Source: Rhodanobacter sp. 67-28 (GTDB lineage Bacteria; Pseudomonadota; Gammaproteobacteria; Xanthomonadales; Rhodanobacteraceae). From it: DNA of 64,000 nt. Made by a program: the position numbers and the translations under genes. Position 1 is the first letter of the stretch. Every line of letters starts with the position of its first letter. Of the stretch, positions 23,965-27,699 are shown piece by piece. The notes under the pieces were generated by a model. It was not told where the DNA came from. It searched no databases and saw nothing but the letters and a program-made list of their open reading frames with translations. Where the stretch lies: positions 62,001 to 126,000 of the forward strand of contig MKTU01000017.1 of NCBI GenBank assembly GCA_001898415.1. The letters run 5' to 3'.

Positions 23965-24002
23965 GAATCGGGAATCCCGCAAGGGGACTTCCTGGCGGTC
24001 GT

Positions 24003-24087
24003 CGGGAATAGGGAATAGGAAGAGCAGGGGCCGCAAACTCGCGGCGACCCGCTTTTCCCATTCCCTATTCCCTGTTCCCCATTCCCG
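24003..24087. repeat. GGGAATA-type inverted repeat between gspE and gspF
   Basis: A left arm with GGGAATAGGGAATAGG (from 24003) faces a right arm of CCTATTCCCTGTTCCCCATTCCC ending near 24087, with about 50 bases between them. The RNA would form a long hairpin in the gspE-gspF intergenic leader. The gspF start codon lies just after it. The same heptamer family occurs four more times in this operon. Confidence 0.75.
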
Positions 24088-24105
24088 GCTGGCGGAGCCA
24101 GCCAA

Positions 24106-25323
24106 GTGAGCCAGTTCCGCTACAAGGCCGTCAACGACGCCGGCGAAACGCTGCAGGGCCAGATGGAAGCGGGCAGCGTCGACGAGGTGATCGCACGGCT
24201 GCAGGACCAGGGGCACACGCCGCTGGAGGCGCGCTCGGCGGAGGGCGCGGCGACCGGCAGTGGCCTGGCGGGCATGTTCAAGCGCGGGCCGTTCACCGGC
24301 GACCAGCTGGCGCTGTTCACCCATCAGCTGGCGACCCTGCTCGGCGCGGGCCAGCCGCTGGACCGCGCGCTGACCATCCTGCTCGACCTGCCCGAGGGCG
24401 AATCGGCGAAGAAGCTGATCGAGCGGGTACGCGATCGCGTGCGCGGCGGCACCACGCTGTCCGCGGCGCTGGACGAGGAGCACGGCGTGTTCCCGCGCCT
24501 GTACATCAGCCTGGTGCGCGCCGGCGAGGCGGGCGGTTCGCTGGAGGAAACCCTGCGCCGGCTGGCCGACTACCTGGAGCGCGCGCAGGCCTTGCGCGGC
24601 AGCATCACCAACGCGCTGATCTATCCGGCGTTCCTGATGGTCGGCGTGCTCGGTTCGCTGGTGCTGCTGCTGGCCTACGTGGTGCCGCAGTTCGTGCCGA
24701 TCTTCCAGGACATGCAGGTGCCGATCCCGTGGATCACCTCGGCCGTGCTGGCGCTGGGCAACCTGCTGGCGGACTGGTGGTGGCTGATCGCGGTACTGCT
24801 GATCGGCGGCGGGCTGGTGTGGCGCGCGCGGCTGCGCGATCCGGCGGCGCGGCTGGCCTGGCACACGCGCCTGCTGGGGCTGCGCGTGATCGGCCCGCTG
24901 CTGCTGAAGATCGAGACCGCGCGCATCGCCCGCACGCTGGGCACCTTGCTGCGCAACGGCGTGCCGCTGCTCGGCGCGCTGACCATCGCGCGCCAAGTCA
25001 CCGGCAACGTTGCGCTGGACGCGGCGCTCGGTGCGGCGCACGAACAGGTCAAGGGCGGTGCCGGCCTGAGCCTCGCGCTGGGCCAGTCGAAACTGTTCCC
25101 GCGCCTCGCGCTGCAGATGGTGCAGGTGGGCGAGGAAGCCGGCCAGCTCGACGGCATGCTGCTGAAAGTGGCCGACACCTTCGAACTGGAATCGCGCCGC
25201 TCGATCGACCGCCTGCTCGCCGCGCTGGTACCCGCGCTGACCATCGTGATGACCGTGCTGGTGGGCATCATCATGGCCGCCATCCTGCTGCCGCTGCTGA
25301 GCATGACCAGCAGTATTCAGTGA
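24106..25323 (+). CDS. gspF: Type II secretion inner-membrane platform protein GspF
   Basis: GspF is the polytopic core of the T2SS assembly platform. The 405-residue protein begins SQFRYKAVNDAGETLQGQME and holds two T2SSF domains (about 70-195 and 275-395). Transmembrane segments include IYPAFLMVGVLGSLVLLLAYVVP and the C-terminal TIVMTVLVGIIMAAILLPLL. Motifs such as GEAGGSLEETLRRLADYLE and GEEAGQLDGMLLKVAD are typical. Translation starts at GTG (24106), with GGAG 9 bases upstream, directly after a hairpin repeat. Confidence 0.96.
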   Translation: MSQFRYKAVNDAGETLQGQMEAGSVDEVIARLQDQGHTPLEARSAEGAATGSGLAGMFKRGPFTGDQLALFTHQLATLLGAGQPLDRALTILLDLPEGESAKKLIERVRDRVRGGTTLSAALDEEHGVFPRLYISLVRAGEAGGSLEETLRRLADYLERAQALRGSITNALIYPAFLMVGVLGSLVLLLAYVVPQFVPIFQDMQVPIPWITSAVLALGNLLADWWWLIAVLLIGGGLVWRARLRDPAARLAWHTRLLGLRVIGPLLLKIETARIARTLGTLLRNGVPLLGALTIARQVTGNVALDAALGAAHEQVKGGAGLSLALGQSKLFPRLALQMVQVGEEAGQLDGMLLKVADTFELESRRSIDRLLAALVPALTIVMTVLVGIIMAAILLPLLSMTSSIQ

Positions 25324-25332
25324 TTGAGAGCA

Positions 25333-25402
25333 GGGAATAGGGAATGGGGAATAGGGAATAGGGAATAGGGAATAGGGAATAGGGAATAGGGAATAGGGAA
25401 TA
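25333..25402. repeat. Tandem heptamer array, ten GGGAATA units
   Basis: Ten consecutive 7-base units GGGAATA fill 25333-25402; the second unit is GGGAATG. The array begins 9 bases after the gspF stop and ends 50 bases before the gspG start. No opposite-strand arm lies close by; the nearest complementary run is at 25537-25566, inside gspG. Arrays of short units change copy number by slippage, so this spacer length may vary between strains. Confidence 0.9.
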
Positions 25403-25452
25403 GGGGAGTACGAAGCAGTTGGGTTTTTCGATTCAGTGATGGAGAGAACGTG

Positions 25453-25986
25453 ATGGTGATGTCTTTGGTGTCGATGGAACGGAGAGTTGGAGATCGGGAG
25501 CGGGGAGGCGGGAATGCGGCAGGCTCCCGAGCGCGCCCTATTCCCTATTCCCCATTCCCTATTCCCGGGCGAAGCCGCGGGCGCACGCAGCGCGCCGGCG
25601 GCTTCACCCTCCTCGAAATGCTCGCCGTGATCGCGCTGATCGGCATCGTGGCGGTGGCGGTGATCACCAAGGTCATCCCCAGTTTCGACAAGGGCAAGTA
25701 CAAGACCGGCAAGATCCAGTTGAGCACGCTGTCGCAGGACATCGACAACTACATGCTCGACAACGGCACGCCGCCGCAGCAGCTGGTCGACCTGGTGAAA
25801 AAGCCCGGCAACGCGCCCAACTGGCAGGGCCCGTACGCCAAGGAGTCGCAGCTGAAGGACCCCTACGGCCACGACTACGGCTACCAGTACCCCGGCCAGC
25901 ACGGCAAATACGACCTCGTCTTCTACGGCGAGGATGGCAAGCCCGGCGGCGACGGGCTGAATGCGGATGCCGGGAACTGGCAATGA
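25453..25986 (+). CDS. gspG: Type II secretion major pseudopilin GspG
   Basis: GspG forms the T2SS pseudopilus. The prepilin peptidase site is G|FTLLEM, followed by the hydrophobic helix LAVIALIGIVAVAVITKVIP and a GspG C-terminal domain with the calcium-loop region (KDPYGHDYGYQYPG). The start at 25453 has GGAGAG 6 bases upstream, which gives a 50-residue leader, far longer than the usual 6-20. The leader includes translated repeat sequence (PIPYSPFPIPG), and no ATG, GTG or TTG lies in frame between the repeat and the cleavage site. The stop overlaps the gspH start. Confidence 0.93.
   Translation: MVMSLVSMERRVGDRERGGGNAAGSRARPIPYSPFPIPGRSRGRTQRAGGFTLLEMLAVIALIGIVAVAVITKVIPSFDKGKYKTGKIQLSTLSQDIDNYMLDNGTPPQQLVDLVKKPGNAPNWQGPYAKESQLKDPYGHDYGYQYPGQHGKYDLVFYGEDGKPGGDGLNADAGNWQ
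25537..25566. repeat. TATTCCC heptamer run inside the gspG leader
   Basis: Four heptamers on the CCTATTCCCTATTCCCCATT pattern lie in frame within the gspG leader codons. They are complementary to the tandem array at 25333-25402, so the transcript could pair the two across the gspG ribosome-binding site. Confidence 0.8.
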
Positions 25987-26531
25987 AGCCGGGAATAGGG
26001 AATAGGGAATGGGGAATGGGAAGAGCGACGTGCTCGAGCGCTCTTCCCATTCCCCATTCCCCATTCCCTATTCCCTGCCGTGGGCGCGCGCAGCGCGCCA
26101 CCGGCTTCACCCTCCTCGAAATGCTCGTGGTCATCGTGCTGATCGGGTTGGCGGCGGTGGCGGTGTCGGTGTCGGTGACGCGGGGGCTGGCCGGGGCGCG
26201 GGTGCGCGCGGCCAGCAGCGAACTGGCCGGGGCGTTGCGCGCGACGCGGGCGCAGGCGATCGTGCATGCCGACGAGCAGGTCTTCGACGTCGATACCCGC
26301 GCCAACAGCTACCAGGGTGCCAGCCATCGCGACGTCGCCCTGCCCAAGGGCCTCAAGGTCAGCATCACCAGCGCAAAGGAAGACCGCCCCGACGACCATA
26401 CCGGCCGCATCCGCTTCTTTCCCGACGGCAGCTCCACCGGCGGCCGCATCACCTTGAAAGCCGGCCAGCGCGAATGGCACGTCAACGTGTCGTGGCTGAC
26501 TGGCGAGGTGCGGGTGGTGGATCAGCCATGA
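25983..26531 (+). CDS. gspH: Type II secretion minor pseudopilin GspH
   Basis: GspH is a minor pseudopilin at the pseudopilus tip. It has the cleavage motif G|FTLLEM, then LVVIVLIGLAAVAVSVSV, then a GspH-type beta domain ending in WHVNVSWLTGEVRVVDQP. Translation starts at the ATG overlapping the gspG stop (ATGA), giving a 41-residue leader that contains both arms of a hairpin repeat (GIGNREWGMGR and LPIPHSPFPIP). No usable start codon occurs between the repeat and the cleavage site. The 182-residue precursor would mature to about 141 residues. Confidence 0.92.
   Translation: MKPGIGNREWGMGRATCSSALPIPHSPFPIPCRGRAQRATGFTLLEMLVVIVLIGLAAVAVSVSVTRGLAGARVRAASSELAGALRATRAQAIVHADEQVFDVDTRANSYQGASHRDVALPKGLKVSITSAKEDRPDDHTGRIRFFPDGSSTGGRITLKAGQREWHVNVSWLTGEVRVVDQP
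25991..26075. repeat. Near-perfect 36-base inverted repeat inside the gspH leader
   Basis: The left arm 25991-26026 (four heptamers plus GGAAGAGC) and the right arm 26040-26075 (GCTCTTCC plus four heptamers) pair with one mismatch in 36 around a 13-base loop. The whole element is coding and in frame. The resulting RNA hairpin begins 8 bases after the gspH start codon. Confidence 0.9.
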
Positions 26532-27040
26532 GGGCGGGGAACAGGGAATCGGGAATAGGGAATAGGCAAAGCAAGTTGCCGCGGGGCCGTGGCTGTTGCT
26601 CTTCCCATTCCCTATTCCCTATTCCCCATTCCCGGCGCGCTCCGCGCGCCAACGGCTTCACCCTCCTCGAAGTGATCGCCGCGATCGCCCTGCTGGCGAT
26701 CGCGTTCACCGTGTTGATGCGGGTGGCGGGCGGCTCGATCCGCCTGAGCGAGAATGCCGCCGACCACAGCGAGGCGGCGTTGTGGGCGCGCAGCCTGCTC
26801 GACACGGCGTTCACCAACGAGCCGGTGCGGCCGGGCAGCACGTCCGGGCGGTTCGACCAGCGCTTTCGCTGGCAGTTGAACGTGGCGCCGTGGCGTCCGG
26901 GCTCGACGCCGGCGCAGGCACCGCTGCAGCTCTATCAGCTCGATCTGGAAGTCAGCTGGGGTCCGGCGGTCCATCCGCAGGTGGCCCATTTCCGCACCCT
27001 GCGGCTGGCCGCGGCGGAGCCGGCGCAGGCGCAGCCATGA
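26528..27040 (+). CDS. gspI: Type II secretion minor pseudopilin GspI
   Basis: GspI joins GspJ and GspK at the pseudopilus tip. The motif G|FTLLEV is followed by IAAIALLAIAFTVLMRVAGG and a GspI domain with WARSLLDTAF and the later SWGPAVHPQVAHFRTL. The start ATG overlaps the gspH stop (ATGA). The leader is 43 residues and again contains translated hairpin repeat (NRESGIGNRQ and SLFPIPHSRR). After cleavage a mature protein of about 127 residues results, normal for GspI. Confidence 0.92.
   Translation: MRAGNRESGIGNRQSKLPRGRGCCSSHSLFPIPHSRRAPRANGFTLLEVIAAIALLAIAFTVLMRVAGGSIRLSENAADHSEAALWARSLLDTAFTNEPVRPGSTSGRFDQRFRWQLNVAPWRPGSTPAQAPLQLYQLDLEVSWGPAVHPQVAHFRTLRLAAAEPAQAQP
26536..26633. repeat. 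Imperfect inverted repeat inside the gspI leader
   Basis: The left arm (about 26536-26574, GGGAACAGGGAATCGGGAAT and on) and right arm (about 26595-26633, ending CCCTATTCCCCATTCCC) are related to the gspH element but have diverged more. They lie in frame between the gspI start and its prepilin cleavage site. Confidence 0.8.
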
Positions 27041-27699
27041 AGAAGCGCGCCGCCGGCTTCACCCTGCTGGAAATTCTCGCCGCGCTGGTGCTGCTGGCGC
27101 TGCTGCTGCTGGGCGTGTACTCGGGCATCGCCAGCGCCAGTCGCAGCGTGCGCTCGGGCACCGCCGCGATCGAGCGGATGGACCAGCTGCGCGCGGCGCA
27201 ACAGTTCCTGCGTCGTGAACTGGCGCAAAGCCTGGCTGCGCCGATCAGCCGCACCGATCGTGGCGAGCCGGTCTATTTCCAGGGCGACGCGCACGAGATG
27301 CGTTATGTCGCGCCGCTGCCGGGCTACCTCGGCAAGCTCGGGCCGCAATTGCAGCAGTTGCAACTGGTCGACGACGGCGCCGGCGGCCTGCGCCTGGAGC
27401 TGCGCCTGGCCCTGCTGCCGCCCGATGGCGGCCCGCCGCAGGCGCTGGGTGAGCCGCAGGTGCTGTTCGACCACATTCGCGCAGGCGGCTTCCACTACCT
27501 GGGCACCGATGCCGACGGCAGCGCCTTGCCGTGGGCAGGCGAGTGGACGGCCGACCGCTCGCTGCCGCAAGTGGTGCGCATCGAGCTGCAGCCGCAGGGC
27601 CGCGCCAGCTGGCCGCGGCTGGACATCCCGCTGCGCATCGAACCGCTCGACGCCGGCGGGCCGTTGCGCATCCACGTACTGCGACGTACCCCGCCATGA
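27037..27699 (+). CDS. gspJ: Type II secretion minor pseudopilin GspJ
   Basis: This 220-residue precursor has a short, classic leader, MKKRAAG|FTLLEIL, then a transmembrane helix LAALVLLALLLLGVYSG and a GspJ domain. GspJ forms the pseudopilus tip complex with GspI and GspK. It is coupled to gspI by ATGA and has no repeat element, in clear contrast to the three pseudopilin genes before it. Confidence 0.93.
   Translation: MKKRAAGFTLLEILAALVLLALLLLGVYSGIASASRSVRSGTAAIERMDQLRAAQQFLRRELAQSLAAPISRTDRGEPVYFQGDAHEMRYVAPLPGYLGKLGPQLQQLQLVDDGAGGLRLELRLALLPPDGGPPQALGEPQVLFDHIRAGGFHYLGTDADGSALPWAGEWTADRSLPQVVRIELQPQGRASWPRLDIPLRIEPLDAGGPLRIHVLRRTPP

Follow-up and report, generated by a model that had tools for sequence, protein, structure and literature searches.

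Heptamer-armed palindromes in frame within the leaders of neighbouring pseudopilin genes of Rhodanobacter

Hairpin repeats in the gspG, gspH and gspI leaders

The window analysed here, a stretch of 64,000 nt, comes from a genome of Rhodanobacter, a genus of soil bacteria, assembled as 82 contigs totalling 4.08 Mb. It contains a gsp operon of type II secretion (T2SS) in the order gspE, F, G, H, I, J, K, L and onwards, and it raises the question of whether the hairpin repeats found between the start codon and the prepilin cleavage site of three consecutive pseudopilin genes are translated, and how they came to be there. A preliminary description of the sequence had given leaders of 50, 41 and 43 residues for gspG, gspH and gspI, against 7 for gspJ, and these lengths were borne out by the reading of the open reading frames together with domain matches. 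All four genes lie on the plus strand. The gspG leader (25453..25602) comprises 50 codons from the ATG at 25453, or 51 from the GTG at 25450, and ends with the cleavage glycine codon at 25600-25602; mature gspG, stop included, occupies 25603..25986 and matched PF08334 (E 1.3e-28). The gspH leader (25983..26105, 41 codons) begins at ATG 25983, which overlaps the gspG stop codon (ATGA), and ends with the glycine codon at 26103-26105, followed by mature gspH with its stop at 26106..26531 (PF12019, E 6.2e-9). The gspI leader (26528..26656, 43 codons, glycine codon at 26654-26656) begins at ATG 26528, in the same kind of overlap with the gspH stop, and mature gspI with its stop lies at 26657..27040. 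The prepilin N-methylation motif that follows the glycine (PF07963) matched all three proteins; the domain search found nothing beyond this motif in the third one, which was called gspI from the operon order. The gspJ leader (27037..27057, from ATG 27037) has 7 codons and no insert, and served as an internal contrast, with a folding z score of +0.6 for the first 123 nt.

The leader arms in the three genes are built of GGGAATN and NATTCCC heptamers in frame, the units being mostly GGGAATA or GGGAATG, with a single GGGAATC unit, in gspI. The in-frame repeats reported for all three leaders were found with both arms in gspH and gspI, each of which contains a complete hairpin; in gspG the G-rich partner array precedes the start codon, and the C-rich arm alone is clean repeat within the leader. 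In gspH the inverted arms (25988-26027 and 26039-26078, 95% complementary) are predicted to pair into a hairpin, about 37 bp long, that begins 9 nt inside the gene (-95.1 kcal/mol, z -12.5); a tail hairpin adjoins the cleavage site. The gspI arms (26534-26574 and 26596-26636) are 83% complementary and are also followed by a tail hairpin (-73.9 kcal/mol, z -6.6). The gspG leader has its C-rich arm at 25536-25566, followed by a GC-rich tail up to the cleavage glycine codon, and when folded by itself it was not clearly ahead of its shuffles (z -1.2; 25 of 200 shuffles were equally good). A GGGAATA array directly behind the gspF stop and upstream of the gspG start (25333..25405) contains a perfect complement of this arm (31 nt, 100% complementary); folding the gspF-gspG spacer together with the leader gave a z of -6.8, and in the predicted structure the gspG start codon would sit in a loop closed by the 31-nt stem.

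A further heptamer hairpin lies between gspE and gspF, within neither gene, at 24004..24087 (ends approximate), with heptamer pairs at C17:86004 and 86060; the fold of 23990-24110 gave -69.0 kcal/mol (z -6.05). The window genome holds a second pseudopilin cluster (G000 C19:12222-13642), where no heptamer pairs were found upstream of the mature ends.

Reading frame and distribution of the long leaders

According to the preliminary description, no ATG, GTG or TTG lay in frame past the repeats. This stood for the region past the C-rich arm in gspG, gspH and gspI; within the elements, the G-rich arm of gspH ends in an in-frame ATG (26016), and the gspI loop contains a TTG (26576). A start inside the element is thus possible for these two genes, in which case the C-rich arm would still be translated.

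In order to see whether the inserts behave as coding sequence, the gsp loci of 43 out of 45 genus genomes, the window's own included, were compared; G027 (no gspG match) and G019 (a weaker gspG match only, 40% identity) were left out. Spacers were taken as long above 90 nt (gspG), 40 nt (gspH), 62 nt (gspI) and 60 nt (gspJ), which admitted one long gspG spacer with a leader of 14 residues (G025). The length of the long spacers was 2 modulo 3, as the ATGA overlap requires, in 22 of the 25 gspH cases and in all 17 gspI cases, with 12 different lengths in each gene. Stop codons in the mature frame were present in 1/22 gspG, 1/25 gspH, 0/17 gspI and 0/3 gspJ long spacers, against 18 and 17 (gspG), 10 and 8 (gspH), 4 and 5 (gspI) and 3 and 2 (gspJ) long spacers with stops in the two other frames. 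Because the frame is kept, stops are rare in the reading frame alone and no standard start codon follows the C-rich arm in the three window genes, the long spacers look translated. We infer the start codons named above and the cleavage of leaders of 41-51 residues; a type IV leader peptidase gene (PF01478) is encoded in the window genome. At the gspH-gspI junction of one relative (G002, L158) the repeat is present and no start codon in the gspI frame occurs past the gspH stop, so that gspI may begin within gspH.

Leaders of at least 30 residues were present at 21/42 gspG, 24/40 gspH, 16/41 gspI and 3/42 gspJ loci, the longest having 72 residues. Three further gspH leaders (G014, G015 and G016), all short, stand outside the 40 loci of the frame and length counts and inside the 41 of the tree. 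The heptamer units vary among genomes (GGGATTC, GGGAACG, GGGAATC and others). In sister genome G005, whose mature GspG is identical to that of the window (L117), the leaders measure 32, 33 and 39 residues, and the scan for arrays detected none in them; these long array-free leaders may perhaps be what the same inserts become with age. The gspG and gspH leaders of G042 and G009 (L153, L154) contain, in frame and behind the heptamers, another palindrome, CTCCCCCGCGGAGCGGGGGAG, and extend to 65 and 72 residues. In G025 (L131) the gspJ leader has been lengthened by another, independent route: its 51 residues are made up of repeats of an ATG-rich unit, MKRAVMRRAVMKPAIMKPAVMKP. Outside the genus, several of the named loci of Dyella, Frateuria and Dokdonella had long gspH leaders, and the Luteibacter and Pseudomonas loci had short ones.

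A comparison of the 5' ends of gspG, gspH and gspI among relatives, which had been proposed as a check, displayed inserts in some of them and none in others. On a quick tree of 41 species built from GspE, F and L, with 8 of 38 inner forks unsupported and without G041 (contig end) and one row with too little sequence, the long-spacer state changed at least 10 times in gspG, 11 in gspH and 10 in gspI. Near relatives differed: G007 had no long spacer, G028 had one in gspG only, and G010 had them in gspH and gspI. Judging from these sequences, the observation holds beyond a single genome.

Dispersed heptamer elements and probable copying between leaders

The window genome contains 342 adjacent GGGAWTN pairs, and a control with the reversed pattern gave none; the heptamer pairing is therefore not chance. 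GGGAATC accounted for 28 pairs and GGGAATA for 85, the latter type numbering 20 pairs in G043, while none of the remaining genomes among the 45 exceeded 6. The units in the leaders tended to match the heptamer types of the genome around them (14 genomes; p 2.5e-4 by shuffling, phylogeny uncontrolled), with the exception of G002, G003 and G008, whose leaders hold units other than the commonest of the genome. A link between the genome-wide heptamer load and long leaders is suggestive: with a cut-off of at least 20 pairs there were 16 high-load cases with long leaders and 3 with short ones, and 8 low-load cases with long leaders and 14 with short ones, the association giving a median p of 0.06 in independent pairs and being weaker at lower cut-offs.

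In 26 of 38 two-armed hairpins sampled elsewhere in the genome (surrounding genes called by codon composition), no more than 120 nt lay between an arm and a coding stop, the median distance being 9 nt. The gspG/gspH and gspH/gspI junctions obey this placement, the position just past the stop being there already the next gene. In most relatives the gspF-gspG junction departs from the rule: only a short distance separates the gspF stop from the gspG start, and the element follows that start.

In three of the 38 sampled cases the frame was open through the hairpin. A start codon followed within 12 or 27 nt in two of them, and the third is a 35-residue in-frame copy in the motor domain of a UvrD helicase (G000 C27:152660-155700, minus strand, L177; residues 300-334 of P0001). 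This insert falls between positions 238 and 239 of a solved DNA helicase II chain, 2is1_A, which we take to be the E. coli enzyme, and it is absent at the same site from 29 of 30 genus loci, sister G005 included. A second UvrD site, around positions 471-476 of 2is1_A, is a linker of variable length (L219-L248); 10 of the 30 loci have at least two units of heptamer type there, and in G028, G008 and G002 the linker is long and of other sequence.

The GC-rich tail was considered as a part of the mobile element and rejected in that role: none of 54 elements elsewhere had it alongside, so that it is a property of the leaders. The same habit in other prepilins was also rejected: among the 18 PF07963 loci of the window genome, one of them below the family cut-off, none of the 14 other prepilin-like ones showed a heptamer pair in the 300 nt upstream. 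A search of Rfam yielded no known RNA family, the 23 matches up to E 1 being to microRNA-precursor models and one traJ-II, all under gathering scores.

The preliminary description had suggested spread by gene conversion, from flanks said to be nearly alike in the three genes. The flank common to gspG and gspH is CAGCGCGCC-NNN-GGC, and that of gspI is CGCGCGCC-AAC-GGC. Among the 21 genomes with long leaders in both gspG and gspH, the identity of the two genes in the 24 nt before the cleavage site was 0.679 within a genome versus 0.519 between genomes (p 5e-5), and 0.899 versus 0.871 in the first 24 nt of the mature codons (p 0.001), whereas the 14 genomes with short leaders in both had no within-genome excess (0.307 vs 0.308 before the site and 0.908 vs 0.909 after it). 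Between gspH and gspI (17 genomes) the excess was clear past the site alone (0.767 vs 0.740, p 7.5e-4; p 0.06 before it), and between gspG and gspI (14 genomes) it was not significant (p 0.23 and 0.055). Local copying or conversion is thus supported for the gspG and gspH leaders; a common base composition could account for some of the within-genome similarity. A 22-nt loop core taken from relatives occurred, with up to two mismatches, at 24 places in the 45 genomes (2 for the reversed control) and at none in the window genome. Twelve of the 24, including all three exact matches, were in gspG, gspH or gspI leaders, and in G010 the core had opposite orientations in gspH and gspI. A genome-wide dispersal of this core was rejected, half of its matches falling in the leaders themselves.

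Probable sheltering of the repeats, possible roles and known systems

We consider it probable that these are in-frame palindromes passively sheltered by the cleaved prepilin leader. Heptamer-armed palindromic repeats, dispersed in the genome and often situated a few bases past stop codons, would have entered the 5' ends of adjacent pseudopilin genes, where, owing to the ATGA overlaps of gspG/gspH and gspH/gspI, the region directly past the upstream stop is the leader of the next gene. Copies in frame and free of stops would be translated as a lengthened leader, which the prepilin peptidase would cut off, leaving the mature pseudopilin unaltered and demanding no function of the insert. Copies may spread or be homogenised among neighbouring leaders through local copying or gene conversion, with arms that tend towards the heptamer types found in the rest of the genome, and the sequence of old copies would erode although the leader stayed open. 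The earlier proposal that the leader is a tolerant site gained support from the recurrence of inserts across the genus, their maintained frame and their avoidance of stops in the reading frame alone. Co-variation of the arms also speaks for the sheltering account: the duplex of a gspH leader with its own arms was predicted at -52.6 kcal/mol versus -39.4 with arms swapped between species (better in 20/24, p 5e-5), and that of gspI at -47.3 versus -41.5 (12/17, p 0.001). Tolerance by itself does not explain the distribution of the arrays, which in the 43 gsp loci scanned numbered 9 at the E/F junction, 13 at F/G, 14 at G/H, 13 at H/I, 2 at I/J, 1 at M/D and 1 before gspE, with none at J/K, K/L or L/M, even though gspJ, too, possesses a leader. 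The lack of heptamer pairs close upstream of the 14 other prepilin-like loci likewise counts against the sheltering account, as does the absence of the loop core from the window genome.

This confinement of most arrays to the E/F-H/I stretch would be expected if the hairpins were kept for regulation, each one lowering initiation or being cut, for example by RNase III, and so fixing the ratios of the major GspG and the minor GspH and GspI. The very stable structure just past the gspH start and the gspG stem able to enclose the start codon point in the same direction, and spacers over 90 nt had z values below -3 in 9/22 cases for gspG, 17/24 for gspH and 11/17 for gspI. Inserts in gspG and gspH also co-occur (20 with both, 17 with neither and 4 with a single one; independent pairs, median p 0.04), the corresponding values being p 0.016 for gspH/gspI and p 0.125 for gspG/gspI. 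A common function could produce the joint gspG and gspH inserts; however, local copying or conversion accounts for the co-occurrence as well, and gives a reason other than function for inserts coming in groups. An essential role of the hairpin is unlikely, because in both gspG and gspH the long leaders of G005, G039, G018 and G041 folded no better than their shuffled versions (30 each) and because long spacers are missing altogether from gspG, gspH and gspI in 17 of 41 species; moreover, the same element resides in UvrD and at unrelated sites. We regard regulation by the hairpins, including the tuning of translation raised in the preliminary description, as possible but improbable. A mixed reading, in which cleavable leaders shelter palindromes that copy between neighbours and the translated hairpins were recruited to set the pseudopilin ratio, or act as a switch by 7-nt slippage, seems slightly less probable again.

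Initiation past the repeats at a non-standard codon would leave ordinary leaders preceded by an untranslated repeat spacer. Prepilin leaders are usually short, and the lengths proposed here are outside the usual range; ATT codons are also available in the C-rich arms. However, most short-leader relatives have an ATG at the position behind the repeats, where the three window genes have no standard start, and the constraint on frame and stops runs through the insert across species, making such initiation very unlikely. We give equally little credence to a reversible frame switch, in which the gain or loss of one 7-nt unit would shift the frame and turn secretion off. Tandem 7-nt units within the coding sequence of three genes of one machine would suit such phase variation, but the arms, at about 4 units, are short and interrupted, and nearly all genomes have the frame intact; with one genome compared per species, off-states could not appear. 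Phase variation was also deemed unlikely for the related xanthomonad repeats in the account of Rehm et al. (PMC4692102). An assembly or sequencing artefact, conceivable in error-prone repeats from an 82-contig assembly, is hardly credible, since the same arrangement with different sequences recurs in many genomes, some of them in 2 to 5 contigs (G008, G009, G010).

Filled and empty sites among close relatives provide a natural experiment on the entry of repeats into genes. A cut-off peptide would let palindromes be translated harmlessly, so that repeats could persist within genes with little burden wherever the peptide that they apparently encode is removed. Sheltering by the leader predicts pseudopilin leaders of 40-72 residues, which would test how long a leader can be tolerated by prepilin peptidase and by the insertion route, and gene callers may misplace the starts of such genes. 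We found no description of repeats in prepilin leaders in the listed titles and abstract openings of open-access papers, and an earlier description elsewhere is possible.

REP elements are dispersed intergenic palindromes mobilised by RAYT transposases and found beside a RAYT gene. The Rhodanobacter palindromes are likewise dispersed between genes, but, unlike REP elements, they have tandem heptamer arms. Spread by RAYT was rejected: two PF01797 genes are present, with single heptamer units in their vicinity (1 and 3 in the loci) and no arrays beside them.

The closest counterpart is the GGGNATC family of heptameric G-rich repeats of xanthomonads described by Rehm et al. in 2015, who left their function open (PMC4692102). 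According to that description these form tandem heptamer arrays, often with two convergent arms (70 and 75 cases), are mostly intergenic and near their 5' neighbour, and have variable arrays at sites of which 83% are common to two species; xpsF is among the associated genes. The family is marked by tandems of two or more GGGANTN units, at least one of them GGGAATC, and by G-quadruplex formation. The Rhodanobacter element shares the tandem heptamers, the convergent arms and the location mostly near the end of the upstream gene, as seen in the 26 of 38 sampled hairpins, and looks like a heptamer hairpin of the xanthomonad type. It differs in that its units vary by species (AATA, ATTC, AACG, AATC) and, relative to the repeats as described in PMC4692102, in having copies in frame in prepilin leaders and a helicase. 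In the latter respect it resembles the Rickettsia palindromic elements, described in a review of MITEs as palindromic repeats in frame in unrelated protein-coding genes (PMC10969869): gspG, gspH and gspI on the one hand and uvrD on the other are unrelated genes with in-frame insertions, so the element appears to enter proteins elsewhere too. This is a likeness by description and not a claim of sequence relation; unlike the Rickettsia elements as described there, those of Rhodanobacter are heptamer-armed, many lie just past stop codons, and those of the gsp genes fall within a stretch of the protein expected to be removed.
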